A DNA stretch of 64,000 nucleotides, from assembly GCF_018882465.1 (NCBI RefSeq), contig NZ_JACVOK010000001.1:62001-126000 (forward strand). The letters run 5' to 3'. This document shows positions 15,545-47,422 of the stretch, piece after piece. This DNA is from Polynucleobacter sp. 73C-SIWE (GTDB lineage Bacteria > Pseudomonadota > Gammaproteobacteria > Burkholderiales > Burkholderiaceae). Each line of letters starts with the position of its first letter. The first letter of the stretch is position 1. Below the pieces are notes generated by a model. It was given only the letters and a program-made list of their open reading frames with translations. It did not search any database and was not told the origin of the DNA. A program made the translations under genes and the position numbers.

Positions 15545-15558
15545 TTGATTGGAAACTT

Positions 15559-16389: not shown

Positions 16390-16394
16390 TCAGC

Positions 16395-17996: not shown

Positions 17997-18001
17997 TCTC
18001 C

Positions 18002-20818: not shown

Positions 20819-22228
20819 TTAAGCCTGTGGATAGCGACTGAAATACTCTTTCAACAAATCCTCAACCTTGGGAACATGCTCCGGAATTGGTCTAACCACT
20901 CTCGTAATATTGAGGTAGTGGCGATAGTTCATATTCTCTGAGAAATTATTCTTACCCCATGTTCCACAACCCATAGATAAAGAAAACGGTAGACCATTCT
21001 CAAAGCTACCACCAGTAGCAATCGCATGAGCCTGGTTCACAATAATTCTGGCGACTGGCAATTGCTGCGCAAGGGCAGCAGCTCTTGATTCTAGGATTTC
21101 ACCACTCTGCGCAGTATGCAAGCCAACGGAATGTCCAGCTCCTTGATAAGCATATACATTGGCAATCAACTCCTTAGCAGCCTCAAAGTCCGCAGCCTTC
21201 CAAATTGTCAGGACTGGGCTTAATTTCTCACCAGAAAAAGGGACCGATAGCCCAAATCCTTGCTCTTCAACCATAAAGAATTTAGTTGATTTTGCCTTTG
21301 GATTTTGTAATTGCGCACGCTCAGCAATCACAGCTGGGCTCTGAGCGGTCAATGTTGAAGTGAGTTTACCATTGTGAAACATCACATTCTCAAGACGCTT
21401 CTTATCTGCAGCATCTAGCATCAAGCCACCTGCCGCTTCAAGCGCACTAATAGCCTTGGCATAAACTTGAGAGCAAATTACTGCCCCATTTTCACTAGAG
21501 CAACTAGTAGCGTTATCAAACGTTTTAGACTGCAATATTTTATTAGCGGCACTAGTGAAATCGGCATGCTCATCAATAATGACTAGAACATTACCAGCTC
21601 CAACACCAAAGGCAGGAGTGCCGCAGGTATAAGCAGCCCGAATATTTGCTTGCGATCCCGTCGCCACAACGAGATCTGCCAGACGCATTAATTCATTAGT
21701 GGAATCTTTGGTAATCGGTGATGGCAGCATCTGCACTAAATCTCTCGGCGCTTTGACTAGATCTAATTGTTGATGCACAAACTCCAGCAAACGTGCGCAA
21801 GTCGAATAACCTTTAGGCGATGGTGCGACTACTACTGCATTACGGCACTTTAAAGCATTTAAGATCTTATTAATGGGTGTGGCGCCAGGGTTCGTTGATG
21901 GCGTAATCGCCGCAACTATGCCTACAGGCCTTGCGTACTCAGTCAAGCCGGTCTTTAAATCTTCAGAAATAACGCCTACTGTTTTGGCATAACTTAAGTC
22001 ACGCACCAAGCCTAAGGTTTTTCTGAAGTTCTTTTTGAACTTGTCTGCTACATCTCCTAAGCCAGTATCTTGAACGGCAAGCTCTGCCAACTCTTGATTT
22101 CGACTTGGCTCAAGAATCGACCAGGCAACCGCCTCAACTACCAAGTTCACCTGAGCTTGCGTGTAGCCCTCAAATATCTTTTGGGCTACACGTCCACGTT
22201 CAACAATTACTTCTACTGGCGTCATCAT
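20819..22228 (-). CDS. sauS: CoA-acylating aldehyde dehydrogenase, probable sulfoacetaldehyde dehydrogenase SauS
   Basis: The protein has 469 residues from ATG 22228 (a second ATG is at 22225). The catalytic Cys is in NATSCSSENG, typical of acylating aldehyde dehydrogenases of the EutE/SauS type, and the cofactor region includes VGIVAAITPSTNPGATP. SauS reduces sulfoacetyl-CoA to sulfoacetaldehyde with NADPH. The gene sits between sauT and a TctC receptor in one minus-strand operon. The xsc gene needed for the next step is at 33009-34817. Confidence 0.82.
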   Translation of the reverse strand: MMTPVEVIVERGRVAQKIFEGYTQAQVNLVVEAVAWSILEPSRNQELAELAVQDTGLGDVADKFKKNFRKTLGLVRDLSYAKTVGVISEDLKTGLTEYARPVGIVAAITPSTNPGATPINKILNALKCRNAVVVAPSPKGYSTCARLLEFVHQQLDLVKAPRDLVQMLPSPITKDSTNELMRLADLVVATGSQANIRAAYTCGTPAFGVGAGNVLVIIDEHADFTSAANKILQSKTFDNATSCSSENGAVICSQVYAKAISALEAAGGLMLDAADKKRLENVMFHNGKLTSTLTAQSPAVIAERAQLQNPKAKSTKFFMVEEQGFGLSVPFSGEKLSPVLTIWKAADFEAAKELIANVYAYQGAGHSVGLHTAQSGEILESRAAALAQQLPVARIIVNQAHAIATGGSFENGLPFSLSMGCGTWGKNNFSENMNYRHYLNITRVVRPIPEHVPKVEDLLKEYFSRYPQA

Positions 22229-22267
22229 CAATACTCTTATGTTTTTTATTTACTGCAATTCTCAAGC

Positions 22268-24287: not shown

Positions 24288-25196
24288 GTGAAATATCCGC
24301 TCTTAGAAAAAATGATTGAGGAAGCTAAGAGCGATCTACCGCTTGGGGTGGTCTACCCTCTAAGTGCGCCAGCACTAGAAACTGTTTTTGATCTCATTAA
24401 AAGACAATTATGTACTCCAATCCTGATAGGCCCGAAAAAAGAAATCGAAGAACTTGCAGCCATTGAAGAACTCTCTTTAGATGGTATACAGATTGTCGAT
24501 ACACCGAAAGATCCCATCTTAGCAACCAAGAAAGCAGTTGAGATGGTGAAAGAAGGAAAGCTAGCAGTTCTGATGAAGGGATCTCTTCATACTGAAGATC
24601 TGATGGGACCAATTGTGCACCGAGATGGATTACGCACTGATAAACGCGTCAGTCATCTTTTTTTATTTGAACTAGCTCGTTACCACAAGCTACTTGGCGT
24701 CACTGATGCCGTTATCAACATTGCGCCAAATGCTCAACTCAAAAGAGAAATACTAGCCAACAGTTTGGATGCCCTAAAAAGGTTAAGTATTAGTAATGTC
24801 AAAGTGGCAATTATCGCTGCTACCGAAGTAATCAACCCAGCCATGTCCTCCACCACTGATGCAAAAGAGATCGTTGATGAGCATATTGCCCATCCGATTT
24901 TTCCGGATACGATTATTGAAGGTCCATTTGGATTTGATAATGCAATTTCAGCACAGTCAGCAAGAACTAAAGGGATTTATTCAAAGGTCGCTGGGGATCC
25001 CGATCTTTTGTTGATGCCAGATTTACAAGTTGGGAATATTCTGTATAAATCCTTTGTCTATATGGCTGGGGCGGAATGCGCAGGAACCATTCTTGGCGCA
25101 CAAGTTCCAATCACACTGACATCCAGGTCTGATTCTGTTTTTTCTAGAGTGGCATCTACAGCGATGGCCATTCTGCTTGCTAAAAACCCTCAATAG
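24288..25196 (+). CDS. pta: Phosphate acetyltransferase (short Pta / phosphate butyryltransferase family)
   Basis: The protein has 302 residues from GTG 24288; AGGACA lies upstream. Features of the PTA/PTB fold are GVVYPLSAPALE at the start, VLMKGSLHTEDLMGPI in the middle, FPDTIIEGPFGFDNAIS, and the C-terminal DPDLLLMPDLQVGNILYKSFVYM. It is the short form without the DRTGG regulatory domain. It converts acetyl phosphate plus CoA to acetyl-CoA plus phosphate. Together with Xsc this is the standard exit of sulfoacetaldehyde into central metabolism. Confidence 0.85.
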   Translation: MKYPLLEKMIEEAKSDLPLGVVYPLSAPALETVFDLIKRQLCTPILIGPKKEIEELAAIEELSLDGIQIVDTPKDPILATKKAVEMVKEGKLAVLMKGSLHTEDLMGPIVHRDGLRTDKRVSHLFLFELARYHKLLGVTDAVINIAPNAQLKREILANSLDALKRLSISNVKVAIIAATEVINPAMSSTTDAKEIVDEHIAHPIFPDTIIEGPFGFDNAISAQSARTKGIYSKVAGDPDLLLMPDLQVGNILYKSFVYMAGAECAGTILGAQVPITLTSRSDSVFSRVASTAMAILLAKNPQ

Positions 25197-25207
25197 TTGA
25201 GAAGCCT

Positions 25208-28096
25208 ATGTTCAAAATATTTTCTAGCGACCCCGTGCATGACCCAATTAACAAGCAAGCACCAGCAACGGAGATCAAAAAAACTACCTGCTATATGTGC
25301 GCCTGTCGTTGCGGAATTAGAGCGCATCTACGAGATGGAAAATTAGTTTATATCGATGGCAATCCTGAGCACCCTTTAAATCAAGGCGTTATCTGTGCTA
25401 AGGGCGCCTCAGGAATCATGAAACAGAATTCTCCTGCACGCATCACGCAGCCGCTACTTCGTAAGGCTGGCAGCGAAAGAGGTGATGGTGAGTTTGAACC
25501 AATTAGCTGGGAAAAAGCATTTGATATTCTGACTGAGCGTCTTGCCAAAATTCGCACCACTGATCCCAAGAAATTTGCCCTCTTTACTGGTCGCGACCAG
25601 ATGCAAGCTCTTACCGGTTTATTTGCAAGGCAGTTTGGCACGCCGAACTATGCTGCTCATGGAGGCTTCTGCTCTGTCAATATGGCGGCCGGCATGATCT
25701 ATACGATTGGCGGAAGCTTCTGGGAGTTTGGCGGCCCAGATTTAGATCAAGCGAAATTGTTTGTCATGATTGGAACGGCAGAAGATCATCACAGCAACCC
25801 AATGAAGATTGCTTTATCGAAATTCAAACGGGCTGGTGGTCGCTTTATCTCAATCAACCCAGTGAGAACTGGATATTCTGCTATTGCCGATGAATGGATT
25901 CCGATCAAACCGGGTACTGATGGCGCTTTGTTTATGGCCTTGATGCATGAGCTTATTCGCCTTGAAAAATACGACGCCCCATTCTTAAAGCGCTTTAGTA
26001 ACTCAGCGCAATTAGTGTGTATGGATTCGGGACCGGAAGAAGGTTTGTTTCTGTACGACCCTGACTCTGATCCACTGAATACAGATTTACCGCATAACAA
26101 ATATATCTGGGATGAAAAATCCCAAAGTGCGAAACCCTGCTTTGCACCAGGAAGCTCACCTACCCTGCTTGGTGAATATGTGATGGGCCCAGGCCCACAT
26201 CAAGGTAAAAAAGTTGCTCCTGCATTTGAATTACTAAAAAGACAAGTCTGCGAAACTACTCCAGAGTGGGCTGCTGCCATTACCAGTATTCCAGCAGAAC
26301 GGATTCGTAAGCTTGCCCTTGAAATGGCAGACACTGCATTCGGTCAAGAGTTTAAGTTACCTATTCAATGGACTGATTCTTGGGGTGAAAAGCATGACTC
26401 TGTAACTGGTAGGCCAGTTGCTTTCCATGCCATGCGCGGCTTATCTGCTCACTCCAATGGATTCCAGACAACTAGAGGTCTAGCGGTACTGATGTCACTC
26501 TTAGGAACCATTGATCGTCCGGGTGGTTTTAGACACAAAGCTCCCTACCCAAGACAGGTGCCGCCCAATGCGAAACCGCCTTCTTCTGAAAATGATATCA
26601 AGCCAAACACCCCGCTGGCTAAACCTCCGCTGGGATGGCCAACACAGCCAGAAGATTTAGCGTTGGACTCTGATGGCAAACCACTGCGTATTGATAAAGC
26701 ATATTCCTGGGAGCATCCCTTAGCTGCGCACGGTTTAATGCATAACGTGATTACTAACGCTGTTAAAGGTGATCCGTATTCCATTGATACGCTGATGATC
26801 TTCATGGCTAATATGTCCTGGAATTCCACCATGAATACCATGGAGGTTCGCGAACATCTCAATGCAAAAGGTGATGATGGCGAATTTAAGATTCCATTCC
26901 TCGTTGTGTGCGATGCATTCCAATCAGAGATGGTGGATTTTGCAGACCTAGTACTACCTGACACCACCTACCTTGAGCGCCATGATGTGATGAGCATGCT
27001 AGATAGACCAATCTCTGAATTTGATGGTCCTGTTGATTCTGTTCGCATTCCCGTTCTCGAACCCCTAGGCGAGTGCAAACCATTTCAGGAAGTACTGATT
27101 GAGCTGGCTTCTCGCTTAAAGTTTCCTGCATTCACTACCCCAGAGGGGGATCGCAAGTTTAAAGATTACCCAGACTTTATTACCCGCTTCCAAACCACTC
27201 CTGACTCAGGTATTGGCTTCTTAAGTGGTTGGCGTGGCAAAGATGGTGATAAACCACTACGCGGTGAACCTAATCCAAACCAGTGGCAAAAATATGCTGA
27301 GAATAATTGCGTTCACCAATATCACATGCCTCCCGAGCATCAATATATGCGTAACTGGAACAAGGGCTATTTAGACTTCTCAAAGGAGAACGCCCTACGC
27401 CAAAAGAACGATCCAATCATGATTGCGATTTACTCGGATATCCTGCAGCGCTTTAGATTGGCATCCACCGGAAAACGTCCAGGCGCACAACCTCCAGAGC
27501 ATCTGAAGGCGCGTATCTATAAATACTTTGATCCACTACCTTTCTGGTATCCACCACTTGAAGATGAGGCTACTGATCTCACGAAATTTACCCTCAATGC
27601 CATTACCCAACGTCCAATGGCAATGTACCACTCATGGGACTCACAAAACGCCTGGTTAAGACAAATCCATAGTCATAACTATTTGTACGTCAACACCGCT
27701 ACTGCACTCAAGAGTGGTATCGCTGATGGCGCCTGGATGTGGATTGAGTCTCAATGGGGGAAAGTTCGCTGCATGGCAAGACATTCCGAGGCAGTTGACC
27801 CAGGAACAGTATGGACCTGGAATGCGATTGGTAAAGCAGAATCCGCTTGGAGCTTGAGCAACGATGCAGATGAATCTAAAAAAGGATTTCTGCTAAACCA
27901 CCTGATCTCAGAAGAGCTTCCATTGGGAGGCTTTACTGTAAGCAATTCCGATCCGATTACTGGACAGGCTGGATGGTATGACGTCCGTGTGCGACTGGCT
28001 CCAGCCGATGAAAATGAACCAAAAGAAACTTGGCCACAAGTAAAAGCATTTGAAGTCCCCGGAATGGCTCTCAAAAAATCGGGAGAGACAAAATGA
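25208..28096 (+). CDS. soeA: Molybdopterin oxidoreductase, probable sulfite dehydrogenase SoeA
   Basis: The protein has 962 residues of the DMSO reductase family. An N-terminal [4Fe-4S] site (CYMCACRCG then ICAKG, about residues 23-64) precedes the bis-MGD domains and a C-terminal molydopterin-dinucleotide-binding domain beginning near HSHNYLYVN. There is no twin-arginine signal, so the enzyme is cytoplasmic, as in SoeABC of Allochromatium and Ruegeria. Those enzymes oxidise sulfite to sulfate and pass electrons to quinone. Location between pta and the Fe-S and membrane subunits in a sulfonate island supports this. Other CISM substrates such as thiosulfate or polysulfide are less likely here. 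Confidence 0.82.
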   Translation: MFKIFSSDPVHDPINKQAPATEIKKTTCYMCACRCGIRAHLRDGKLVYIDGNPEHPLNQGVICAKGASGIMKQNSPARITQPLLRKAGSERGDGEFEPISWEKAFDILTERLAKIRTTDPKKFALFTGRDQMQALTGLFARQFGTPNYAAHGGFCSVNMAAGMIYTIGGSFWEFGGPDLDQAKLFVMIGTAEDHHSNPMKIALSKFKRAGGRFISINPVRTGYSAIADEWIPIKPGTDGALFMALMHELIRLEKYDAPFLKRFSNSAQLVCMDSGPEEGLFLYDPDSDPLNTDLPHNKYIWDEKSQSAKPCFAPGSSPTLLGEYVMGPGPHQGKKVAPAFELLKRQVCETTPEWAAAITSIPAERIRKLALEMADTAFGQEFKLPIQWTDSWGEKHDSVTGRPVAFHAMRGLSAHSNGFQTTRGLAVLMSLLGTIDRPGGFRHKAPYPRQVPPNAKPPSSENDIKPNTPLAKPPLGWPTQPEDLALDSDGKPLRIDKAYSWEHPLAAHGLMHNVITNAVKGDPYSIDTLMIFMANMSWNSTMNTMEVREHLNAKGDDGEFKIPFLVVCDAFQSEMVDFADLVLPDTTYLERHDVMSMLDRPISEFDGPVDSVRIPVLEPLGECKPFQEVLIELASRLKFPAFTTPEGDRKFKDYPDFITRFQTTPDSGIGFLSGWRGKDGDKPLRGEPNPNQWQKYAENNCVHQYHMPPEHQYMRNWNKGYLDFSKENALRQKNDPIMIAIYSDILQRFRLASTGKRPGAQPPEHLKARIYKYFDPLPFWYPPLEDEATDLTKFTLNAITQRPMAMYHSWDSQNAWLRQIHSHNYLYVNTATALKSGIADGAWMWIESQWGKVRCMARHSEAVDPGTVWTWNAIGKAESAWSLSNDADESKKGFLLNHLISEELPLGGFTVSNSDPITGQAGWYDVRVRLAPADENEPKETWPQVKAFEVPGMALKKSGETK

Positions 28097-28752
28097 GTAA
28101 AAAAAATAAACAGCTAGCTCTCGTTATTGACCTGAATGTATGCGTGGGATGCCATGCTTGCGTTACTTCTTGCAAGGAGTGGAATACTTCTGGCTCAGCA
28201 GGCCCTTTGACTGATCTGAATGCCTATGGCGCCAGTCCAAGTGGAACCTTCTTCAATCGAGTACAAACTTTCGAAGCAGGCACTTTCCCCAACACACAAA
28301 CAGTTCACTTTCCAAAGTCCTGTCTACATTGCGAAGAGCCTCCTTGCGTTCCGGTTTGCCCGACAGGTGCAAGCTATAAACGCAAAGAGGATGGCATTGT
28401 TCTGGTGGACTATGAGAAATGTATCGGCTGCAGCTATTGCTCTTGGGCCTGCCCTTACGGCGCTCGCGAGCTCGATGAAGAGCGTCAAGTGATGACCAAG
28501 TGCACTCTCTGCGTAGATCGAATCTATAGCGAGACTTTGCCAGAGGCTGAGAAGAAGCCTGCCTGCGTTCTAGCCTGCCCTACTAGCGCACGTATTTTTG
28601 GCGATGTCCATGATCCAGAATCTGACGCCAGTAAAGCGATCGAGGAGCGCTCCGGCTATGCACTCATGCCTGAATGGGAAACCCAACCAGCCAATCATTA
28701 TTTACCGCGTTCCATTATGGAAACAATTGATGCAGCAAGGAATGACAAATAA
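28093..28752 (+). CDS. soeB: Four-cluster ferredoxin subunit, probable SoeB
   Basis: The protein has 219 residues with four Cys motifs: CVGCHACVTSCKEW, CLHCEEPPCVPVCPTGA, CIGCSYCSWACPYGA and CTLCVDR with PACVLACP. This is the DmsB/PhsB/SoeB electron-transfer subunit. The start overlaps the soeA stop (ATGA) and the stop overlaps the soeC start (TAATG). It carries electrons from the molybdenum subunit to the membrane subunit. Confidence 0.88.
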   Translation: MSKKNKQLALVIDLNVCVGCHACVTSCKEWNTSGSAGPLTDLNAYGASPSGTFFNRVQTFEAGTFPNTQTVHFPKSCLHCEEPPCVPVCPTGASYKRKEDGIVLVDYEKCIGCSYCSWACPYGARELDEERQVMTKCTLCVDRIYSETLPEAEKKPACVLACPTSARIFGDVHDPESDASKAIEERSGYALMPEWETQPANHYLPRSIMETIDAARNDK

Positions 28753-29687
28753 TGCGTCCACAATTTTCAATTATTTTCTTTACTACCTTGGTCGGAATGG
28801 CTCAAGGCCTGCTATTTTTTATAGCGCTAGCAAACTTGCATAATCAATCTATTCCCAATGCATTTCTCACCAATCTAGCTCTACCAGTTGCTTTTGCTAT
28901 CCTAGCTTTAAGTCTGATTGCCTCATTCTTTCACCTGGGCCACCCTGAGAGAGCATGGCGCGCTGCCATGATGTGGAGAACTTCTTGGCTATCAAGAGAG
29001 GTGATCGCCCTACCGGCAGTCATGGCTGTAACGGTGGTAATTTTCCTTTATGCAGGCTTTGGCGAAGTACCACAGTGGCTATGGATTGTCCTGCTATTTA
29101 CTACGATAGTCCTTTGGGTATGTACCGCCAAAATCTATCAATGTATTCGCTTCATTCAAGAGTGGTCGCATCCTTCCACCTTAACTAACTTTATTCTGCT
29201 GGGCGCAACTTCTGGCTGGATTTTGTTAGAACTACTAATTGCGCTATGGGGCGATACCTCAGCGCAATTGATTGATGCCCCACTCTCTGTCATTGCTTTT
29301 GTATTGTTGTTTCTATCGTTGAGTCTGAAGCTTTGGATTTGGAGCCGCAATCGTAAGCTGAAGCCAAAATCGAACCTGGCGACGGCGACTGGAATTAAGG
29401 GTAATAATATTCGCCAAACTTCGATGGGACTCATGGGTGGCAGTTTTAACACTCGCGAATTCTTTCATCATCAAACAGATAAAGTGATTGCCAATATACG
29501 CAAGATTATTTTGCTTTGTGCCTATGTCATCCCCATGATCTTGATGGCCTATGCGATCACCTCACCTAATTTCTTAGTGATTACATTGGCATTGCTCATT
29601 AACTACCTGGGCTTACTTGCCGAAAGATGGATGTTTTTTGCAGAAGCAAATCATCCCCAAAATTTGTACTATCAAAGAGTCTCTTAA
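28752..29687 (+). CDS. soeC: DmsC-type membrane anchor subunit, probable SoeC
   Basis: The protein has 311 residues with about eight hydrophobic segments and the DmsC-like stretch FFHLGHPERAWRAAMMWRTSWLSREV near residues 61-86. It anchors SoeAB at the inner face of the membrane and delivers electrons to quinone. It is the third gene of soeABC, with a nitroreductase gene 9 bases downstream. Confidence 0.87.
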   Translation: MRPQFSIIFFTTLVGMAQGLLFFIALANLHNQSIPNAFLTNLALPVAFAILALSLIASFFHLGHPERAWRAAMMWRTSWLSREVIALPAVMAVTVVIFLYAGFGEVPQWLWIVLLFTTIVLWVCTAKIYQCIRFIQEWSHPSTLTNFILLGATSGWILLELLIALWGDTSAQLIDAPLSVIAFVLLFLSLSLKLWIWSRNRKLKPKSNLATATGIKGNNIRQTSMGLMGGSFNTREFFHHQTDKVIANIRKIILLCAYVIPMILMAYAITSPNFLVITLALLINYLGLLAERWMFFAEANHPQNLYYQRVS

Positions 29688-29696
29688 GCACAACCG

Positions 29697-30272
29697 ATGC
29701 TCATGGATCAATTTGCCGAACAGCTCATCAATGGCAGAACCCATGTATCTCCTAAAAGACTAGGTAGTCCTGGGCCCAGTACATCCCAAAAAGAGACTAT
29801 TCTCTTGGCGGCTAATGCGGCCCCTGATCACGGCAGAATGGTGCCATGGCGATTCATTGAGATTCAAGAGGGTAGTCGTTCTGCACTTGGGGAGGTCTTC
29901 CGTCAGTGTCTATTAGACCGAGATCAAGCAGCTACTCCAACACAACAACAAGAGGCGCTTGATAAAGCTTCTCGAGGCCCACTGCTCTTGCTAGCCATAG
30001 CAAATTACAAAGAAAGTAATGAAGATATCAGCAAGCAAGAAAAGCTGATATCTCTTGGATGCGCTATTCAAAATATTCTATTGAGCGCTTACGCTTTTGG
30101 ATTTGGCTCCGGATTATCCAGTGGCCGAGCTCTACAAAGTGACCGAGTTAGATCACTATTTAAACTTACAAATGACGAAGAACCAATCTGCTTTATTACG
30201 ATTGGCACTGTATTAAAAAATAAGCCTGGTCGAATCCGGCCAGGCTTATCTGAATACCACTCCATTTTTTAA
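29697..30272 (+). CDS. Nitroreductase-family flavoprotein
   Basis: The protein has 191 residues, close to the YdjA/RutE-like short nitroreductases. The FMN-binding start is LLAANAAPDHGRMVPWRF, and GCAIQNILLSAYAFGFGSGLSSG marks the second half. It likely uses FMN with NAD(P)H. Its role beside soeABC is not known. The 3' end converges with the AcnX small subunit gene (4-base overlap) and holds a hairpin that acts in the other direction. Confidence 0.85.
   Translation: MLMDQFAEQLINGRTHVSPKRLGSPGPSTSQKETILLAANAAPDHGRMVPWRFIEIQEGSRSALGEVFRQCLLDRDQAATPTQQQEALDKASRGPLLLLAIANYKESNEDISKQEKLISLGCAIQNILLSAYAFGFGSGLSSGRALQSDRVRSLFKLTNDEEPICFITIGTVLKNKPGRIRPGLSEYHSIF
30221..30248 (-). terminator. Terminator of the xsc-AcnX operon inside the nitroreductase 3' end
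   Basis: TAAGCCTGG (30221-30229) and CCAGGCTTA (30240-30248) form a perfect 9-base stem with a 10-base loop. On the minus strand it is followed by six T, so it should end the transcript coming from xsc. It lies within the coding end of the nitroreductase gene. Confidence 0.8.
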
Positions 30273-30685
30273 GAACTCCAGAGTACTTCGACTGTTTGGT
30301 TCTTAGTATCAATTCGCAATCTTGCTCCGCTAGCAATAGCCTGTGTAATATCACAATCAAAACCACTTAACATGGGGATGCCAGCATGGGCTGCGCCCTG
30401 AGCTAAGATTGGATTTACAGCATTGAAAATAATCGCTGATGGGCAAAGATCTCTAGACTTCATTTCATAAAGCATCCAGGCGCTTGCTACGCCACCTTTA
30501 GCGGCATCTAGCACCAAAATTTTATCTTTATAGGACTGGCCAAATAGTTTATGAGCAGGTCGTGAAAATACCCCCTTCAGACGATCTAAATCGTAACGAG
30601 CTGAAAATCCATCAGATGCACTGAGGCACTCACCTTCGATACTCTGACCTTGAGCGTGTTTCGCTTTATATATTTTTCCACTCAC
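30269..30685 (-). CDS. Aconitase X small subunit (DUF126)
   Basis: The protein has 138 residues from GTG 30685, chosen because GGGAGA lies six bases upstream and the codon overlaps the large-subunit stop (GTGA). A longer frame to 30718 would begin MCASC and has no ribosome site. The swivelling-domain features of DUF126 are seen: GECLSASDGFSARYDLDRL, KILVLDAAKGGVASAWMLYEM and FNAVNPILAQGAAHAGIPM. With the large subunit it forms a two-chain AcnX hydro-lyase. Confidence 0.85.
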   Translation of the reverse strand: MSGKIYKAKHAQGQSIEGECLSASDGFSARYDLDRLKGVFSRPAHKLFGQSYKDKILVLDAAKGGVASAWMLYEMKSRDLCPSAIIFNAVNPILAQGAAHAGIPMLSGFDCDITQAIASGARLRIDTKNQTVEVLWSS

Positions 30686-31914
30686 TTTAATCTCCCGGTT
30701 ACGGCAGCTTGCACACAATCTTCCATCGATGCCAACATTGGTGTATAGCCATAGCCGCCCAAAATATTAACTATCTTTGCGCTATTCGTTGCCAACACCT
30801 TCCATCCATTTGTCTCGGCAATTTCTCTGGCGTAAGACTGATAGAAGCACATGCCAGAAAATACTGTTCCACCAGCATTCTCAATCATTTCGGTATAGCC
30901 CATACGATCAGAGTCAGGCTTTACCTGAGGACTGGTCATAGCAAGTAAAGGCTTGATAAATTTCTTGCCATTACATAACTCAGCAATACTCTTCATTTCC
31001 ATCAAACTTAATTGCGGAGCTGAAAATACAACTACATCAATCTCCTCTGCAATCCTGTATGAATTTTGCAGCCCCATTACCTCTTCTTTAGTAATGAGAG
31101 CCTCTGGGAGATGTAAATATTCCAGATCGCGCGAGCGCAAGGCTTCAGGAGTCACGCCAAGTACATGAAATAAGGCTGTAGAACCAAAGCTAGCCATAGC
31201 TGCGCCAAAATGCTTCATGGCATCGGATCCAGGATGACCTTCAATCCCTTCAAGTACAGGCACTGACCAATAGTTACCTGATTTTTTACCAATCAATCCA
31301 CCCAGTGCGCCCCATTCATTTAAAGTCTGAGGGGTCCATGAAGTTTTGAAACGATGAGTTGGCTTGCGATGCTCATCTAGGTGATAGCCATAACGCGGAG
31401 TTCTGCCGGTAAGACCTGCTGCTAATGCCGAAGGGCCACCCTCAAAATTGGAGCGCGCACCACAAACGCTATTTGAGTAGATCACAACACCTGTATCGCC
31501 AAATGCTAAATGCTCACCATAAACTGGAGCCATAATTGTTTGGTAGTTAATACAGGTATCCGTCATTGATACCCCCATTTTTACAAAAGCATCGATCGCC
31601 CGTCTCTCCAACTCAAGCATTTTTTCAGTTTGACCCAATTGCTTTGCTTTAGTGAAATCGGTACCTCTTGGATCGGTGATGGTTGGAATGCGAACCATTC
31701 GATCTGCAGTGGAATATTTTGCAAGGCCCTCTAACCACTCAACACCAGCCTCACCCAAACTCTCGGTATCAGCCATGATGTGAGCCTGAGATACAGGAAC
31801 TAAGTCATTGGCTCCAAAAAATTCACCGACCTTAATTTGATGTTGAATTGCTATCTGCCTTACTGGACCAAACTCACCAGCAAGCATTGCCTTTTCTTCT
31901 GCATTCAGTTTCAT
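30682..31914 (-). CDS. Aconitase X catalytic subunit (DUF521)
   Basis: The protein has 410 residues. Probable Fe-S or metal ligand Cys lie in TDTCINY, NSVCGARSNFEGG and FSGMCFYQ, all in the usual AcnX places. Characterised AcnX enzymes include cis-3-hydroxyproline dehydratase in bacteria and phosphomevalonate dehydratase in archaea; many subgroups have no known substrate. Here it lies in the order xsc, tctC, AcnX-L, AcnX-S on one strand with a single terminator. No hydroxyproline gene is nearby. The substrate is unknown; a hydroxy acid related to sulfonates is possible. Confidence 0.87.
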   Translation of the reverse strand: MKLNAEEKAMLAGEFGPVRQIAIQHQIKVGEFFGANDLVPVSQAHIMADTESLGEAGVEWLEGLAKYSTADRMVRIPTITDPRGTDFTKAKQLGQTEKMLELERRAIDAFVKMGVSMTDTCINYQTIMAPVYGEHLAFGDTGVVIYSNSVCGARSNFEGGPSALAAGLTGRTPRYGYHLDEHRKPTHRFKTSWTPQTLNEWGALGGLIGKKSGNYWSVPVLEGIEGHPGSDAMKHFGAAMASFGSTALFHVLGVTPEALRSRDLEYLHLPEALITKEEVMGLQNSYRIAEEIDVVVFSAPQLSLMEMKSIAELCNGKKFIKPLLAMTSPQVKPDSDRMGYTEMIENAGGTVFSGMCFYQSYAREIAETNGWKVLATNSAKIVNILGGYGYTPMLASMEDCVQAAVTGRLK

Positions 31915-31932
31915 TTGTTTTCTTATTTACTA

Positions 31933-32916
31933 TTAATCAACAGTAGCGCCAGAATCACGAACTACTCTAGCCCACTTAGCAATCTCACTAGTTTGGAAGT
32001 TGGCTAAGCTTTCCTTAAAGTCAGTATTTGGTTGAACACCTAAATTACCCAGGCGCTCCTTGAATGCGGCTGATTGTGCAATCTTCTCAGTATCAGCTCT
32101 CAGTTTTTTTGTAATTGGCTCTGGTAATTTAGCCGGAGCAAATAAAGCCCACCATGCAGTTGATTCAAATTGCGGATAACCCAACTCAGCTACAGTAGGC
32201 GTATTTGGCAACAAAGGTGAACGGGTTTTACTCGTCACTGCCAAGGCACGCAACTTGCCTGAGGTGATATGCGGCAATACAGACTGAATTGGATCAAACA
32301 TCAATGGGATTTGATTACCAATGAGGTCAGTTACAGCAGGAGCGCTTCCTTTATAGGGAATATGCTTCAATTTAATCTGGGTAGTAGATTCAAATAGCGC
32401 TGCAGTTAAATGTCCTGGAGTTCCATTTCCAGCAGTTCCATAGGCAATTGTCTCGGGCTTTGATCGAGCCTCTGCAATCAATTCAGCAAGCGTCTTAATA
32501 CGATCACTCGAATTCACCACAATCACTACAGGAGCGGTCGCCACTAAAGCGATAGGCGTGAAATCTCTTGTCATGTCATACGGCAACTGTTTGTAAAGGC
32601 TGCCATTAATTGCATTTGTACCGACAGTGCCCATGAACAAGGTATAACCATCGGGAGCAGACTTAGCAACGAGATCCGCACCAATTGACCCACCAGCTCC
32701 GCCCTTATTCTCAATCACTACTTGTTCCTTAAGACTTTCACCAAGCAATAAGGCTAGTGGTCGAGCAACAATATCAGTTGGACCTCCCGGAGGAAATGGC
32801 ACGATTAAGCGAATCGGCTTAATCGGATAGGCCTGCGCCATTACATTACTTGAAAGCAAAACTAATCCAAAACATACCAAGAAACATTTACAAACTTTTA
32901 TTATTAGGTTATTCAT
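31933..32916 (-). CDS. TctC/Bug-family periplasmic receptor
   Basis: The protein has 327 residues with a Sec signal peptide (to about residue 28, ending NVMAQ) and the motifs IRLIVPFPPGGPTDIVARP, IENKGGAGGSIGAD and HIPYKGSAPAVTDLIGNQ. It lies between xsc and the AcnX genes in one operon. Like the other two receptors here it lacks TctA/TctB partners in the window. Its ligand may be the substrate of AcnX or a sulfonate. Confidence 0.92.
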   Translation of the reverse strand: MNNLIIKVCKCFLVCFGLVLLSSNVMAQAYPIKPIRLIVPFPPGGPTDIVARPLALLLGESLKEQVVIENKGGAGGSIGADLVAKSAPDGYTLFMGTVGTNAINGSLYKQLPYDMTRDFTPIALVATAPVVIVVNSSDRIKTLAELIAEARSKPETIAYGTAGNGTPGHLTAALFESTTQIKLKHIPYKGSAPAVTDLIGNQIPLMFDPIQSVLPHITSGKLRALAVTSKTRSPLLPNTPTVAELGYPQFESTAWWALFAPAKLPEPITKKLRADTEKIAQSAAFKERLGNLGVQPNTDFKESLANFQTSEIAKWARVVRDSGATVD

Positions 32917-33008
32917 CAGTCTGACCCTAGAAAAGTATGGATAGAAATAGTCTAGCGCAAAAGAAAAAGTCCAGTTAAACCGGACTCTCTCTTTATGCTC
33001 ATAACGTC

Positions 33009-34817
33009 TTATACGTAATCTTTGTATTTATCCAGGAAACGTACTGGCTTAGATAAGGCATCGCGGCGGAATGGATCGCCCAGTTCACGAGTACACATAA
33101 TCTCGATGACACAAGTCTTACCTTCCTTCATCTGCATATCAACTGCCTTCTTGAGGGCTGGACCAACCTGATCAAGTTGATCCACTATGATGCCTTCAGC
33201 GCCCATGGATTTCGCAATACCCGCAAAACTTGGGCTATCCAGCTCGCCCGCTACAAAACGGCGATTATAGAAATCTACCTGGTTCTTTTTCTCAGCGCCC
33301 CACTGACGATTATGGAAAACAATCGCAGTAACTGGGATATCGTGTCGCACAGCAGTCAAAATCTCCACCATACTCATTGCCCATGCACCATCTCCGGCAT
33401 AAGCAATTGCGGGACGATCAGGCGCCGCTGCTTTGGCCCCAATAATAGTTGGTAATGCATAACCACAGTTACCGAAACTCATTGGAGCAAAGAAGCTACG
33501 TGGTTTTTCAAAGCGCAGATAGCTATTGGCAACGGAGTTGATATTACCAATATCAGTGGACACCATTACGTCAGCAGGCATTGCTTTTTCAAGCTCGCGT
33601 AAAACTTGACGTGGGTGCAAGTAATGACCTCCTGTTGGAGTCACCTCTTTTTTCTGCTCTTCAATCATGTCTAAGCTGAATGGGTCTTTTTCATGAGTCC
33701 AATCATCTAACTCTTTTTCCCATGCTGCTTTTTCTGCTGCAATCGTTTTTGCACGTTCAGCCTTGCTTGCATCACAGGCTAAGGTCTTACCTTCCAGACG
33801 CTTGGTTAATGCAACTGCAGCAGCCTTAGCATCACCACAAATTCCTACAGAAATTTTCTTCACTAAGCCGAGCATCTTGTTGTCGGCATCGATTTGAATA
33901 ATCTTTGCATTTTTAGGCCAGTAGTCCATACCGTGTTGTGGCAATGTACCAAATGGCCCAAGGCGTGAACCAAGTGCAACCACCACGTCTGCCTGCGAGA
34001 TCAGCTTCATCGCAGCTTTAGAACCCTGATAACCGAGAGGGCCGCACCACAGTGGGTGGCTTGCCGGGAAAGAATCATTGTGTAGATAGCTATTCACTAC
34101 TGGAGCACCAAGGCGCTCAGCAAATGCCTTGCACTCTTCAACGGCATCACCCATTACTACGCCGCCACCAGAAATAATGACTGGGAACTTAGCGTTAGCC
34201 AAGAGCTCAGCTGCCTCATCTAAACTCTTTTCACCACCAGGACCACGATCGAGGCGATTCGGCTGCGGAATCTCTACTTCAATTTCACCATAGAAATAAT
34301 CACGCGGGATATTGAGTTGGGTTGGGCCCATTTCAGATAGAGCGCGATCAAAACAGCGGCCAGTAAATTCAGCCATGCGCTTAGGATTATTTACATGGCC
34401 CTGATATTTTGTGAACTCTTCGAACATTGGCAGTTGATTGGCTTCTTGGAACCCGCCTAAGCCCATGCCCATTGTTCCTGTTTCAGGTGTGATGATCACT
34501 ACTGGGCTGTGTGCCCAATAAGCAGCCGCAATTGCTGTAACGCAGTTGCTAATGCCGGGACCATTTTGTCCAATCACAACACCATGATTACCACTAACGC
34601 GAGCATAGCCATCAGCCATATGCGCCGCACCTTGTTCATGAACAACAGGGATCAAACGAATACCTGCTGGAGCAAAAATATCCATCGCATCCATAAATGC
34701 AGAGCCCATGATTCCAAATATATCCTTCACCTTATTGGCGACCATCGTCTCCACAAATGCTTCAGAAGGGGTCATTTTTTGCGGGCCGGTAGGTAAATTA
34801 GCGCCAGACTTAGACAT
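33009..34817 (-). CDS. xsc: Sulfoacetaldehyde acetyltransferase
   Basis: The protein has 602 residues, the usual Xsc length. It has the thiamine-diphosphate fold: catalytic Glu in PVVHEQGAAHMADGYAR, TPP/Mg motif GDGAWAMSMVEI with FHNRQWG, and the Xsc-type stretches IGQNGPGISN and MGLGGFQEANQ. TAGGAGAG precedes the ATG. Xsc converts sulfoacetaldehyde plus phosphate to acetyl phosphate and sulfite in the cytoplasm. It is the meeting point for sulfoacetate, taurine and isethionate routes. In this window SauS (20819-22228) makes its substrate and Pta (24288-25196) uses its product. Confidence 0.95.
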   Translation of the reverse strand: MSKSGANLPTGPQKMTPSEAFVETMVANKVKDIFGIMGSAFMDAMDIFAPAGIRLIPVVHEQGAAHMADGYARVSGNHGVVIGQNGPGISNCVTAIAAAYWAHSPVVIITPETGTMGMGLGGFQEANQLPMFEEFTKYQGHVNNPKRMAEFTGRCFDRALSEMGPTQLNIPRDYFYGEIEVEIPQPNRLDRGPGGEKSLDEAAELLANAKFPVIISGGGVVMGDAVEECKAFAERLGAPVVNSYLHNDSFPASHPLWCGPLGYQGSKAAMKLISQADVVVALGSRLGPFGTLPQHGMDYWPKNAKIIQIDADNKMLGLVKKISVGICGDAKAAAVALTKRLEGKTLACDASKAERAKTIAAEKAAWEKELDDWTHEKDPFSLDMIEEQKKEVTPTGGHYLHPRQVLRELEKAMPADVMVSTDIGNINSVANSYLRFEKPRSFFAPMSFGNCGYALPTIIGAKAAAPDRPAIAYAGDGAWAMSMVEILTAVRHDIPVTAIVFHNRQWGAEKKNQVDFYNRRFVAGELDSPSFAGIAKSMGAEGIIVDQLDQVGPALKKAVDMQMKEGKTCVIEIMCTRELGDPFRRDALSKPVRFLDKYKDYV

Positions 34818-38415: not shown

Positions 38416-39588
38416 TTATGCAGACTCGTATAAACGGGTCATTACAAACTCACGGTGGCCCAAAATTTCAGCTGCCGTCAATTCACCGTTTGCGGTGCGG
38501 ATCAGTGCATCGAGAAGCTTCTCACCTGCTGTGTCCAAGTTTTCTTCGCGACGCAAGATGCCAGAAACATCAACGTCAATGTGCTCAGACATTGTTCGTA
38601 CAGTTTTTGGATTAGCGCACAACTTGATCACTGGAAGAATTGGATTACCAATCACGTTACCTTGCCCAGTTGGGAAGAAGTGAGCAGCAAAACCTGCAGC
38701 AGCACATAAAGTCACCATCTCAGCAGCTGCTGAAGATGAGTCCATGAAATGCAAGCCAGGAATAGTTGGAGTTTCAGCCTTATCAAGCACCCCATCCACA
38801 ACACATTTCTTACCAATTTTCTGGATATTGCCCAATGCCTTCTCTTCGATGGTGGTAAGACCACCAGCAATATTGCCTTTAGTTGGCTGTGAATCGGATA
38901 AGTCGCTCGTTTTATTCTTCTCAACAACATCTTGATAGCGATCAAACATGGCGCGGAATTTTTTCTTAACCTCTGGTGTACGGCAACGTGCCTCAACTAA
39001 GTGTTCGCCACCTGTTAGCTCAGTAGTTTCACCAAATACCAAAGTTGAACCAATGTCATAGAGCTTATCAAAAGCGTTTCCTACAGTTGGATTGGATGCA
39101 CAACCAGAAGTAGTGTCAGATTCGCCGCACTTAGTAGAAACCCATAGCTCTGATAAAGGAGCAGAGACTCGCTGTTGCTTAGAGGCATGCTTCATCATGG
39201 AGTAAGCAGCTTTGCTAGCGCTAGCAATAGTTGCTGTATCGCCATTACCCTCAATCCAGAAACCTTCAACTGGCTTACCTGAAGCCTTAATACCATCAAC
39301 CACAATCTTGGTCCACTGTGGCTCAATACCAATCACCACTACGCCAGCTACGTTAGGATTGCAGCCAGCGCCAATCAAGGTTCTGAAGTGAAGCTCTAAG
39401 TCTGCACCGAACTGAAGGCGACCGTAAGGATGTGGAATGGCAATGGTGCCTTTAATATTATTAGCAACTGCTTCGCAGGCTGCATTCGATAGGTCATCCA
39501 ACGGCAAAATAACGACATGGTTACGAATACCCATACGTCCATTTTCACGGCGGTAGCCCATAAAAGTTGCTTCTTTTAAATTAATCAT
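38416..39588 (-). CDS. suyB: Sulfolactate sulfo-lyase, large (beta) subunit
   Basis: The protein has 390 residues of the altronate/galactarate dehydratase C-terminal family. [48 protein letters not shown] and [19 protein letters not shown] match that family, and the split from a small SAF-domain subunit and the neighbours slcC and comC identify it as SuyB. An alternative start is ATG 39561; 39588 is preferred for AAGAGAGA upstream. SuyAB releases sulfite from (R)-sulfolactate and forms pyruvate. Confidence 0.9.
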
Positions 39589-39628
39589 TTTTTATCTCTC
39601 TTAATATCGTAGTGAATACTCGTATCGA

Positions 39629-39910
39629 TTACCAACGCTTAGTCTTAACATTTTGAACATGGGTATGCTCACCTTTTTTGATAGGAGCAACTACCTTACC
39701 GATATCTACGCCATACTTAATGATGGTGTCGCCGGTTTTCATGTCTTGCAGAGCAATCTTATGGCCAATTGGAATATCACTCTCAGATTTGATATTGACA
39801 GTACTATCACCATCCATTACCCAACCAATTAAATCAGTACCAGCCTTTACGCCCTCTACCACGACAACGCCAACTACGTCTCCTGGTTCATGCACGACAA
39901 AATGAATCAT
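39629..39910 (-). CDS. suyA: Sulfolactate sulfo-lyase, small (alpha) subunit
   Basis: The protein has 93 residues of the UxaA N-terminal/SAF type: MIHFVVHEPGDVVGVVVVEG at the start, then GWVMDGDSTVNIKSESDIPIGHKIAL and GVDIGKVVAPIKKGEHTHVQNVKTKRW at the end. It is the usual small partner of SuyB, 40 bases upstream of suyB and 30 bases after comC. Confidence 0.9.
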   Translation of the reverse strand: MIHFVVHEPGDVVGVVVVEGVKAGTDLIGWVMDGDSTVNIKSESDIPIGHKIALQDMKTGDTIIKYGVDIGKVVAPIKKGEHTHVQNVKTKRW

Positions 39911-39940
39911 TTCTTTCTCCTTAAAAATCCTGTTTGAATA

Positions 39941-40951
39941 CTACCCATTCCATGACTGACGAATGCCAGTCTGAATTTCTTCTAAAACAACATCAGAAAC
40001 ATTGACGCCCTCTTTAAAGCCCGCCGCCCTTTGCTTAAAACGCCTACGTCCTGGGATACGAGTACCAGCATCTGCCGCTAAAGTTTTTAAAAAGCCTTGT
40101 ATCTTGTTTGCAAATACTTGTCTACCTGCTAATCCTGGATCAAAAGTCAATAAGAGCTGGCCAATACGTGGTCGATTTCCCTTGGCGTCAAAAAATGAAT
40201 CCGCCTCATAAGAAAATCTACTGCCCGACAAACCAACAACTAATAATTCGATCATGAGTGCCAATAGCGCCCCTTTATCACCACCAAGCGGAACCATCAA
40301 ACCTTTCAGCCCTTCGTTGGGATCAGTAGTCGGCTTGCCTTGAGCATTTAGAGCCCAGCCTTCAGGAATAGACTCCCCTTTTTTGGCAGCAACCAGTAAT
40401 TTTCCACGAGCAACCGCAGACAAAGACATATCAATTACCAAGGGGTCTTGATTGTCAATCGGAAAAGCTGCCGCTAATGGATTCGTGCCGAACAAAGCCT
40501 TACTTCCGCCAACCATCGGCATGGCAGCAGGCGTATTACCAAACAATAACGAGATATAACCTGCTCGAGCAGCAGCTTCGGCAAAATGCCCGGCAACCCC
40601 AAAGTGATGGCTATTGGTTACGGCAACTAGGCCCACACCAGTTTTAGAGGCTAGATTTACTGATAAATCGGTTGCAAAGCGTAAGGCTGGAAATGCAAGT
40701 CCATCACAAGCATCCACTAGCGCAGCAGAGGCCTTAAAAGGACGCACTTTAATTTTAGGATCAAGCTCTACACGACGATTTTTTGCATGTCCCGCGTATT
40801 GAGAAACTCGAGCTAAACCATGGGAAGCCAAACCATCTAATTCCGCAAGAGCTAAAAACTGTGCAGTTTCAAATGCTGCTTTCCCCCCTATCCCAGCGGC
40901 TTGTAGACCTGAAGACGCTAATTGAACCATCTTTTCATAGGACAAGTTCAT
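39941..40951 (-). CDS. comC: Sulfolactate dehydrogenase of the LDH2/MDH2 family
   Basis: The protein has 336 residues. NSHHFGVAGHFAEAAARAG, FGTNPLAAAFP and GGDKGALLALMIELL are hallmarks of the malate/L-sulfolactate dehydrogenase (LDH2) family. By family knowledge ComC interconverts (R)-sulfolactate and sulfopyruvate with NAD(P)H. Its start overlaps the slcC stop (ATGA). Gene order slcC-comC-suyAB supports the racemising role known from Chromohalobacter. Confidence 0.88.
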   Translation of the reverse strand: MNLSYEKMVQLASSGLQAAGIGGKAAFETAQFLALAELDGLASHGLARVSQYAGHAKNRRVELDPKIKVRPFKASAALVDACDGLAFPALRFATDLSVNLASKTGVGLVAVTNSHHFGVAGHFAEAAARAGYISLLFGNTPAAMPMVGGSKALFGTNPLAAAFPIDNQDPLVIDMSLSAVARGKLLVAAKKGESIPEGWALNAQGKPTTDPNEGLKGLMVPLGGDKGALLALMIELLVVGLSGSRFSYEADSFFDAKGNRPRIGQLLLTFDPGLAGRQVFANKIQGFLKTLAADAGTRIPGRRRFKQRAAGFKEGVNVSDVVLEEIQTGIRQSWNG

Positions 40952-41883
40952 TTCAAAGCTCCTAAATACCGATTCACTTCATCGGCAATCATTTGGCTAA
41001 CACGCTCATTACTTTCATGCGTTACACCCGCAATATGCGGTGTCAGAATGAGGTTCTCAATTCCCTCGAAATGGCTTAAATCCTTAGCAGGCTCGGAAGA
41101 AAAAACATCGATTGCCGCACCGCCGATACGTCCTGAGCGAAGTCGATCTGCAAGCGCCAACTCATCAACAATCCCACCGCGAGCCGTATTAATCAGACAG
41201 GCACCCTCTTTCATCTGATCAAGCGTTACCGCATTAAATAAATTCTTGGTTTCAGGTAAATACGGAAGATGTAAAGAAACTGCATGACTTCTAGAGAGTA
41301 ATTCACTTAGTGTGAGTAGGGGTACTGAATATTCCTCAAGTTTTACAGCATCGTCAGACAACATCGGGTCGTAAGCGATACATTGCAAACCAAAGGCATG
41401 TGCTTTTTTAGCTACCACCCTACCAATACTGCCAAAACCGACAATCCCTAAGGTTTGACCCAAAAATTCGTGATATCCGGAAAAGCGAGGGCGTGGCCAC
41501 TCGCCCTTAAGGGTTGCCATCGTTGCAGGTATAAATCCACGAGTTAATGCGACTGCAGCCCCAACTACGTATTCAGCGACCGACTCAGCATTCGCGCCTG
41601 TAGCAGGAATCACTTTAATGTTACGTTTGGCGCAAGCTGGCAGTTCAATATTCTCTAGTCCAACTCCAAGACGTCCCACAACCTTCAATACTGGAGATGC
41701 ATTCAGGACTTCCTCATTTACCTGGGTCAGATTGCGAACTACAAGCGCATCAATATTTTGCACAGCAGCAATCAGAGCTGGCCTATCCTTATATAAGTCA
41801 GGCTCGTAAATGACGTCGTGCCTAGAGCACAGGGTATCTAGGGCTTGACTAGTGATGAACTCAGAGATCAAAATAGTAGACAT
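40948..41883 (-). CDS. slcC: (S)-Sulfolactate dehydrogenase, D-2-hydroxyacid dehydrogenase family
   Basis: The protein has 311 residues from ATG 41883 (STILISEFIT...). In-frame starts at 41889 and 41931 are possible; none has a strong ribosome site. The NAD-binding motif is GFGSIGRVVAKKA, and the catalytic Arg, Glu and His lie in INTARGG, IDVFSSEP and LTPHIAG. SlcC oxidises (S)-sulfolactate to sulfopyruvate. It is the first gene of the sulfolactate operon, divergent from a TctC receptor gene. Confidence 0.88.
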   Translation of the reverse strand: MSTILISEFITSQALDTLCSRHDVIYEPDLYKDRPALIAAVQNIDALVVRNLTQVNEEVLNASPVLKVVGRLGVGLENIELPACAKRNIKVIPATGANAESVAEYVVGAAVALTRGFIPATMATLKGEWPRPRFSGYHEFLGQTLGIVGFGSIGRVVAKKAHAFGLQCIAYDPMLSDDAVKLEEYSVPLLTLSELLSRSHAVSLHLPYLPETKNLFNAVTLDQMKEGACLINTARGGIVDELALADRLRSGRIGGAAIDVFSSEPAKDLSHFEGIENLILTPHIAGVTHESNERVSQMIADEVNRYLGALK

Positions 41884-41949
41884 ATCCATATCATATAGAT
41901 GATTTAGATCACTTGCAAGTAGCGGTACCATTTTTAAGAAAAAGATAGG

Positions 41950-46166: not shown

Positions 46167-46176
46167 CGTCGTTTTC

Positions 46177-47052: not shown

Positions 47053-47062
47053 ATCAACCTAA

Positions 47063-47422
47063 TCAATTAGCAAAATATAAAAATAGGATTCCGCAAGTAA
47101 TCGCGAACAAAATAGAGAGCTGAATCCAGCCCTTACGCAAACCCTTCCATGGTCCAAACTCAATCATTAACAAACGTATACCGCCTGCCAAATGAACGGC
47201 CAGCATAATCACTAGGGCCCATTCGCCAAACTTAAATACCCACATGTCAGTCAAAGTAAGCGATTTCTCAAAGCCCTCTGCACCTCGCAAGGATTGAGAA
47301 AGCATCAGAAAGTGCAGTGGAATAAAGCATGCCAATAACAAGCCAGAAAAGCGATGGCATGCATAAGCAAAATAAGATAAGTGGGTTTTGGCGCGGTAAT
47401 CTAATTTTGGTCTGGAGCTCAT
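47063..47422 (-). CDS. SDH/FRD membrane subunit, SdhC-like cytochrome b type
   Basis: The protein has 119 residues from ATG 47422, which overlaps the upstream stop (ATGA). The start PKLDYRAKTHLSYFAYACHR and three hydrophobic segments, with His in ACHRFSGLLL, LHFLML and AVHLAGGIRLL as possible haem ligands, fit SdhC/D-type subunits. It should anchor the complex and react with quinone. Confidence 0.8.
   Translation of the reverse strand: MSSRPKLDYRAKTHLSYFAYACHRFSGLLLACFIPLHFLMLSQSLRGAEGFEKSLTLTDMWVFKFGEWALVIMLAVHLAGGIRLLMIEFGPWKGLRKGWIQLSILFAITCGILFLYFAN

Follow-up and report, generated by a model that had tools for sequence, protein, structure and literature searches.

In a window of 64,000 nucleotides (nt) from the freshwater bacterium Polynucleobacter sp. 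73C-SIWE (positions 62,001 to 126,000 of contig NZ_JACVOK010000001.1; the genome measures 2.0 Mb), the sulfoacetaldehyde acetyltransferase gene xsc heads a unit that continues with a TctC-type receptor and with the large and small chains (AcnXL and AcnXS) of an aconitase X (AcnX). The linkage between xsc and AcnX is real and recurrent, and the AcnX pair carries a rebuilt active site within a known enzyme family. Only two aconitase X reactions are described in the literature surveyed (the relevant passages of PMC10040528 and PMC8184944), while the pair reported here belongs to a well-bounded clade that has lost some of the residues essential in the studied members. A role of this AcnX in sulfonate use is probable, not proven. 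Surveyed genomes and loci are cited below by labels beginning with G and L, respectively, and coordinates within the window are collected in Table 1.

As stated in the earlier note, xsc, the receptor and both AcnX chains share one strand, the minus strand, with small gaps (92 nt between xsc and TctC, 18 nt between TctC and the large chain, and -4 nt between the two chains), a spacing that suggests a single transcript. The junction between both AcnX frames reads GTGA, a 4-nt overlap of the large-chain stop with the small-chain start, and therefore the small chain most likely begins at the GTG at 30685 rather than in a longer TTG frame. The single terminator formerly placed at the end of the unit was not confirmed, since a search 3' of the small chain found no terminator-like site on the minus strand; the stop of this chain overlaps by 4 nt that of a convergent nitroreductase gene. 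The AcnX gene is 99% identical to the Polynucleobacter hirudinilacicola copy, and in Polynucleobacter the large chain is subject to strong purifying selection, with ratios of nonsynonymous to synonymous substitution (dN/dS) of 0.011-0.027 relative to close relatives with estimable dS, many dS values being near saturation. No TctA gene stands beside the receptor in the window, both TctA matches of the genome lying outside it (TctB was not searched for). Receptors adjoining AcnX in other Betaproteobacteria are mostly 54-69% identical to that of the window (43% in L192), and the remaining TctC proteins of the surveyed loci mostly 33-44%.

Both chains score above their Pfam gathering thresholds, and among enzymes of solved structure the nearest is type IIb from archaea, with type I from Agrobacterium next (E 4e-33). 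Foldseek searches with the predicted large-chain model agree, with type IIb and type I enzymes at the top (7cnr_A, E 1e-30, template modelling score 0.78), followed by homoaconitase and aconitase, so that, judging from the model, the large chain has the aconitase X fold. Active-site positions were taken from the residues mapped by Watanabe and co-workers in the pertinent sections of PMC8184944, with Tk denoting the Thermococcus kodakarensis type IIb enzyme (7CNR/7CNS) and At the Agrobacterium type I enzyme. On this basis, two cluster cysteines and the catalytic lysine are retained, neither of the known third-ligand positions holds a cysteine (alanine occupies that of Cys283 of type IIb), and the general-base serine is replaced by glycine. 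Additionally, isoleucine replaces the carboxylate-site tyrosine (Tk Tyr365, At Tyr534), and Asp81 replaces an asparagine that contacts the glutamate near the cluster and, in type IIb, also the substrate phosphate. That glutamate, called highly conserved among all AcnX enzymes in the text available from PMC10040528, is not required for the Pfam family, and is aspartate in the window protein and throughout its clade. Mutants in Ser70, Tyr534 and Cys510 of the studied AcnX are described as almost inactive (PMC8184944, same sections). Because the serine base is lost and the carboxylate site is reshaped, the chemistry and the substrate should differ from those of both characterised aconitase X enzymes. 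Cys151 was considered as a third cluster ligand and rejected, as it is not conserved in 70%-identical relatives.

In the alignments, these residue changes mark a whole clade and not one gene. In a set of 168 small-chain rows, repeat fetches included, the motif KGG[VI]A is found in 130 of 130 clade rows and [KR]GS in all 34 other rows with letters, the remaining 4 being gapped. The corresponding large-chain set (209 rows, again with repeat fetches) contains 145 rows with Asp-Thr-Gly (D-T-G) at the positions of residues 140-142; all of them have arginine at the position of Arg83, versus 0 of the 64 others, and all but 3 have aspartate at that of Asp81. In a thinned set of 96 rows, those with D-T-G number 63 and all fall on one side of a branch of length 1.52 with 100/100 support; the clade includes records titled Alpha-, Beta- and Gammaproteobacteria. 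Hydroxyproline-type residues are found in a separate clade with many Burkholderiaceae copies, and AcnX proteins bearing them coexist with a copy of the D-T-G clade in three genomes (G072, G100 and G287). The subgroup phylogeny thus places the pair outside the hydroxyproline clade, and the claim of the earlier note that the known AcnX substrates do not fit is borne out by the clade-wide loss of landmark residues together with the separate, fully supported clade; both cis-3-hydroxyproline and phosphomevalonate become very unlikely substrates.

Regarding the linkage, xsc scores over its cut-off in 41 of 186 Polynucleobacter genomes and AcnX occurs in 35, with 27 having both; xsc is therefore found in 27/35 genomes with AcnX versus 14/151 without it (p 1.7e-15, for genomes that are related and not independent). 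In 15 genomes xsc lies directly upstream of the AcnX module, 14 by coordinates (including G418, with an xsc fragment) and G396 by the end of xsc on a short contig; G325, with xsc, TctC and AcnXL in pieces, was left out. All the xsc-adjacent copies group in one branch of the genus tree (support 1.000). Stand-alone modules with a divergent LysR gene number 8, in 7 genomes, and a LysR gene is kept between xsc and the module in 4 of the 15 xsc-adjacent cases, its absence from the other 11 being spread over about five tree groups. Absence in 11/15 versus 0/8 LysR-type stand-alone modules (p 0.001) hints at a take-over by xsc regulation, with which the loss of LysR fits. Three stand-alone copies, those of G344, G441 and G253, lack LysR too. 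Two loci of the genus merit separate mention. At L241 (G325:C1:1492001-1512000) xsc, SauS, SoeA, SoeB, TctC and AcnXL all appear split, by joint decay or assembly error, and in G390 the LysR-TctC-AcnXL-AcnXS array occurs twice, within a duplicated stretch (L239 and L240), one copy being followed by TctC-, TctB- and TctA-like genes (TctA 517 bits).

The linkage extends beyond this genome, whereas its restriction to a single genome would, according to the earlier note, have refuted the idea: besides the 15 genomes of the genus, the gene-neighbourhood survey recovers it in L166, L176 and two other Burkholderiaceae genera. In L166, from a Pseudomonadota metagenome-assembled genome (MAG), xsc (937 bits, over the cut-off) is followed by AcnXL, AcnXS, TauE and the start of Pta, cut by the contig end; L176, from another Pseudomonadota MAG, shows the end of xsc and the same AcnXL, AcnXS, TauE and Pta order; and L189 presents AcnXL, AcnXS, a TauE-like frame and Pta, with no xsc adjoining. 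In L128, from a Lautropia MAG, TauE, ComC-, SlcC-, SuyB- (74%) and SuyA-like (66%) genes and a GntR gene precede TctC-AcnXL-AcnXS. SauS matches lie within 8 kb of AcnX in L167 and L170, the latter over the cut-off and 6.5 kb away. In the family, 4 of the 10 non-Polynucleobacter genomes with both genes, representing two genera, have the clade AcnX 19-24 kb from xsc, and proximity within 25 kb is thus found in 4/10 such genomes versus 0/38 for other AcnX types (p 0.001). The AcnX locus of Cupriavidus G002 contains a sulfopyruvate/phosphonopyruvate-decarboxylase-like pair (below cut-offs) and GlcDEF-like genes, and that of G266 such a pair, by likeness to G002; because of these a chain from sulfolactate through sulfopyruvate and sulfoacetaldehyde to Xsc can be drawn. 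In strain NT-26, too, the annotation places GlcDEF-type genes next to AcnX. An apparent MocR regulator 5' of the L166 xsc and the L189 AcnX was discarded: it came from the reading of a cut frame, and the L166 piece matched nothing in Pfam.

In a scan of 129 proteins encoded close to AcnX at 72 loci, TctC is the most frequent (21), followed by UTRA and GntR regulators (5 and 4), TauE (4), CLC channels, aldo/keto reductase, MFS and LysR (3 each) and SulP, DctM and CitMHS (2 each). These lists are approximate, as neighbour frames were picked by amino-acid make-up and 3 of the 132 proteins listed (two of L040, one of L123) were omitted from the scanned alignment. As observations in their own right, a protein of ~750-790 amino acids (aa) recurs near Alphaproteobacteria clade AcnX (L152, L159, L173, L179 and L193; annotated as DUF3604 in L193, the others by likeness), and proteins that we read as sulfatase-like lie near clade AcnX in L137, L141, L159, L168, L184 and L185.

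Considering these data, we propose that the orphan periplasmic TctC receptor would take up an anionic acid and hand it to one of two TctA-type carriers encoded elsewhere in the genome, and that AcnXLS would then add water to it, or remove it, at the Fe-S cluster. Lys380 and Asp140 would be placed at the substrate hydroxyl, Asp81 may act as a new base, and Arg83 would face the distal anionic group, holding a sulfonate or a second carboxylate; the latter residue is two positions away from that of the asparagine with which the archaeal enzyme holds the phosphate group of mevalonate 5-phosphate. The product would then enter the sulfite-releasing sulfolactate/sulfoacetaldehyde node of the cluster around the unit. 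The order of the genes, the membership in the clade, the altered residues, the repeated linkage and the fact that receptor and AcnX genes stay together are observed. From sequence we infer the hydro-lyase activity of the two-chain AcnX, its direction, its base and its sulfonated substrate, and whether receptor and hydro-lyase indeed feed an imported sulfonated acid into that node appears to us evenly poised. With xsc, suy-like and sau genes as neighbours, the sulfonated substrates worth testing are few, and they come with a receptor to match. The single best candidate reaction, doubtful as it is when taken by itself, is the reversible hydration of 3-sulfoacrylate to 3-sulfolactate. A route from 3-sulfopropionate through sulfoacrylate to sulfolactate is reported, from a thesis, for Roseovarius nubinhibens (PMC11489063), and the passage describing it names no hydration enzyme. 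Tentatively, and on the unlikely side, the clade might be the first aconitase-superfamily branch acting on organosulfonates, with the base moved to Asp81 and the sulfonate bound by Arg83, interconverting 3-sulfoacrylate and 3-sulfolactate or the homologous 4-sulfocrotonate and 3-hydroxy-4-sulfobutanoate, and so filling the hydration step between 3-sulfopropionate-type sulfonates and SuyAB/Xsc desulfonation. If true, this would open a new sulfonate entry route in aquatic sulfur cycling and would show an aconitase-type site working without its serine base.

The strongest alternative is that the TctC-AcnX pair handles an ordinary, non-sulfonated carboxylic acid as a mobile unit, often with its own LysR gene, that came to lie beside xsc by chance and was kept by hitch-hiking in a catabolic island. 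We regard this as a genuine possibility, if short of probable, because flanks free of sulfonate markers are common and AcnX occurs without xsc, as xsc does without AcnX. Stand-alone LysR-TctC-AcnXL-AcnXS modules in Polynucleobacter are in line with it, as are the carriers typical of carboxylates in the neighbour set (TctC, DctM and CitMHS) and the FrdA-SdhB-fumarase-type genes recurring near clade AcnX (L136, L152, L158, L179, L188 and L193). On the contrary, xsc or sau neighbours recur on distinct branches within the clade tree (L166, L170 and Polynucleobacter), with suy-like ones in L128, the proximity to xsc distinguishes the clade from other AcnX types, and the neighbour set also includes anion exporters (TauE, CLC 3 and SulP).

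Several further observations weigh against a sulfonate role. A marker, namely an Xsc match of at least 40%, a match to SauS or SuyB, or TauE-Pta in the flanking DNA, is present in only 6 of 77 non-Polynucleobacter clade loci (L128, L166, L167, L170, L176 and L189), a count that excludes the window, the Polynucleobacter loci and the 43%-identical L041; many of these flanks are short, yet many long ones lack a marker too. Weaker likenesses were not scored (Xsc-like at 35% in L172 and 25% in L187, SuyB-like at 31% in L133, TauE alone in L127 and L187). Within the genus, all 5 AcnX-negative sister genomes viewed have an intact xsc locus that lacks the module, where xsc abuts the convergent nitroreductase gene and the remaining cluster is alike; the module is therefore an accessory insert or loss. 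Eight of the 35 AcnX genomes lack xsc over the cut-off: G418, G396 and G325 contain xsc fragments, and the others are G337, G379, G390, G436 and G438, only G390 and G379 being near-complete. G390 (100% complete) has two modules and SuyB, and G379 neither xsc nor SuyB. The LysR contrast weakens to 11/15 versus 3/11 (p 0.045) when LysR-less stand-alone copies with a visible upstream region are included, and to p 0.14 once three unseen copies are assumed to resemble their 77%-identical relatives. Receptors adjoining AcnX in Alphaproteobacteria are only 35-42% identical to the window TctC. The predicted model has a mean predicted local distance difference test score of 77.6, with residues 118-156, including an active-site stretch, poorly predicted. 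A paralogous fumarase of the window could perform the sulfoacrylate hydration in place of AcnX.

Co-occurrence outside the genus was set aside as evidence. The clade AcnX is accompanied by xsc in 9 of 11 non-Polynucleobacter genomes (43%-identical G004 excluded), a figure that is uninformative because xsc, present in 118 of 299 family genomes, is carried by nearly all members of some genera; the two without it, G166 with SuyB and G037 with neither, again speak against a sulfonate role. An association with SuyB (identity of at least 74%, in 7/10 clade genomes versus 24/76 controls drawn from these four genera; stratified p 0.08) was not used as support either, and a phylum sample provided only two genomes with clade AcnX out of 398, both with xsc, which are too few.

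A second alternative, which we find improbable, makes AcnX a sulfo-lyase whose Fe-S site would aid the departure of sulfite from a beta-sulfo acid, a reaction that SuyAB carries out with a different fold. The lost serine base and the nearby anion exporters would suit it, TauE being directly downstream of AcnX in L166 and L176 and a close relative of that TauE being present in L189. Nevertheless, sulfite elimination would presumably also take a proton from the next carbon and still need a base, the aconitase-superfamily reactions described in the consulted part of PMC8184944 all move water, and the clusters concerned already have xsc or SuyAB for releasing sulfite. Finally, a cis-3-hydroxyproline or phosphomevalonate dehydratase of known type with a drifted sequence is scarcely credible: the near-full-length homology to both enzymes is offset by the clade-wide absence of the landmark residues of both, a score of 185 bits to NF051439 (cut-off 700), the separate clade, and the hydroxyproline-type AcnX present alongside clade copies.

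The window around the unit is a sulfonate cluster in which three TctC receptors adjoin three sub-clusters, sauS, xsc-AcnX and suy. The SauS neighbours include a TctC and an IclR regulator; the three-subunit molybdoenzyme next to the Pta-like gene is presumably a Soe-like sulfite dehydrogenase; and on the far side of xsc another TctC and a TauE exporter accompany the suy set, whose SuyB-, SuyA- and SlcC-like names are our assumption. Its ComC-like protein reaches 216 bits to NF040650, under the cut-off of 500, and the SuyA-like frame has no Pfam match. This suy cluster, its TctC and its TauE are adjoined at 43837-48503 (minus strand) by a succinate-dehydrogenase-like flavoprotein, two fumarase subunits and SdhC/D/B-like genes, a set that might turn 3-sulfopropionate into sulfolactate through sulfoacrylate; flavoproteins 61-71% identical, together with SdhB and/or fumarase-type genes, occur at the six clade loci already cited for such genes.

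A CobS/CbbQ-like AAA ATPase and a CobT-like VWA protein (34960-37693, plus strand) also adjoin xsc. Of 10 other xsc loci viewed in Burkholderiaceae, 6 have the pair near xsc (L243, L250 and L252-L255, not L229, L245, L248 or L251). CbbQ/CbbO is the activation pair of Rubisco, and by analogy this pair could serve the maturation or activation of Xsc. Further away, IclR, BKACE, GMC oxidoreductase and SulP genes form a tight operon (14732-19273, plus strand; gaps of 14, 5 and 5 nt), in which BKACE scores 447 bits to NF053568 (cut-off 350) and the GMC protein is 53-64% identical to AcnX-linked GMCs and one xsc-linked GMC, versus 50% to another xsc-linked type. With SauS nearby, BKACE may cleave a sulfonated beta-keto acid. 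A GMC-BKACE-SauS-Xsc route for 3-hydroxy-4-sulfobutanoate was nonetheless rejected, BKACE being untied from AcnX because it occurs, beside the GMC gene, in 4/5 AcnX-negative, xsc-positive genomes. BKACE paralogues lie 10 kb (G390) and 6 kb (G337) from AcnX, with no shared operon. Consequently, 3-hydroxy-4-sulfobutanoate is kept only as an alternative substrate.

Table 1. Features of the xsc-TctC-AcnX unit, predicted active-site positions of AcnX and neighbouring sulfonate genes, in window coordinates.
Feature	Position	Strand	Evidence
xsc, sulfoacetaldehyde acetyltransferase, first gene of the unit	33009..34817	-	TIGR03457 1069.7 bits (cut-off 676.4)
TctC-type receptor of the AcnX module	31933..32916	-	PF03401 230 bits
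AcnX large (catalytic) chain, 410 aa	30682..31914	-	PF04412 382 bits (cut-off 31.5); closest solved 7cnr, E 1.4e-59
AcnX small (swivel) chain, GTG start	30269..30685	-	PF01989 89 bits (cut-off 27); 7cnr_B, E 1.6e-12
Asp81 (replaces Asn of types I, IIa, IIb) and clade-only Arg83	31666..31674	-	
Cys121, putative first cluster ligand (Tk Cys110)	31552..31554	-	
Asp140-Thr141-Gly142, replacing Glu-Ser-Ser (Tk) or Glu-Ser-Asn (At)	31489..31497	-	
Cys356, putative second cluster ligand (Tk Cys342)	30847..30849	-	
Lys380, conserved catalytic lysine (Tk Lys361, At Lys530)	30775..30777	-	
Lys-Gly-Gly of the small chain, Gly replacing the general-base Ser (Tk Ser62, At Ser70)	30491..30499	-	alignment
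SauS, acylating sulfoacetaldehyde dehydrogenase, with adjoining AMP-forming CoA-ligase	20819..22231	-	NF047625 733 bits (cut-off 600)
Pta-like gene and three-subunit molybdoenzyme	24288..29687	+	
SuyB-, SuyA-, ComC- and SlcC-like sulfolactate set	38416..41931	-	GD_AH domains, 2-Hacid_dh

As far as the open-access literature searched shows, the enzyme of this clade is uncharacterised. Among the titles and abstract openings listed from that literature, none ties aconitase X to sulfonates; both terms occur in PMC5144071, where the sulfonate is merely a nuclear magnetic resonance standard. The passages at hand on the Xsc, SauS and SuyAB pathways and on the SlcHFG sulfolactate transporter of the tripartite tricarboxylate (TTT) type (PMC5812351) make no mention of AcnX. 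As in those systems, the window has xsc and sauS over their cut-offs and TTT-type receptors beside the sub-clusters, although the receptor here is an orphan, unlike SlcHFG. Within aconitase X, types IIc-IIf, as described in PMC8184944 and PMC10040528, where their function is stated as unknown, are also bacterial, made of two chains and devoid of the landmark residues of known functions, the likeness being one of description only. The cis-3-hydroxyproline type shares with the window AcnX the fold and the domain set, and two cluster cysteines only are also reported for type IIa in the relevant portion of PMC8184944, whereas Ser70, Glu292-Ser293-Asn294, Asn233, Asp203 and Tyr534 are replaced here; no hydroxyproline genes were recognised among the scanned proteins, a subset of the window frames. 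In type IIb phosphomevalonate dehydratase (Tk), the third cluster cysteine (Cys283, here Ala), Ser62 (Gly), Thr63, Glu129-Ser130-Ser131, Asn79 (Asp) and Tyr365 are those replaced, while the separate chains, the fold and the equivalents of Cys110, Cys342 and Lys361 are shared, and for the AcnX of the window, too, an anionic distal group on the substrate is plausible.

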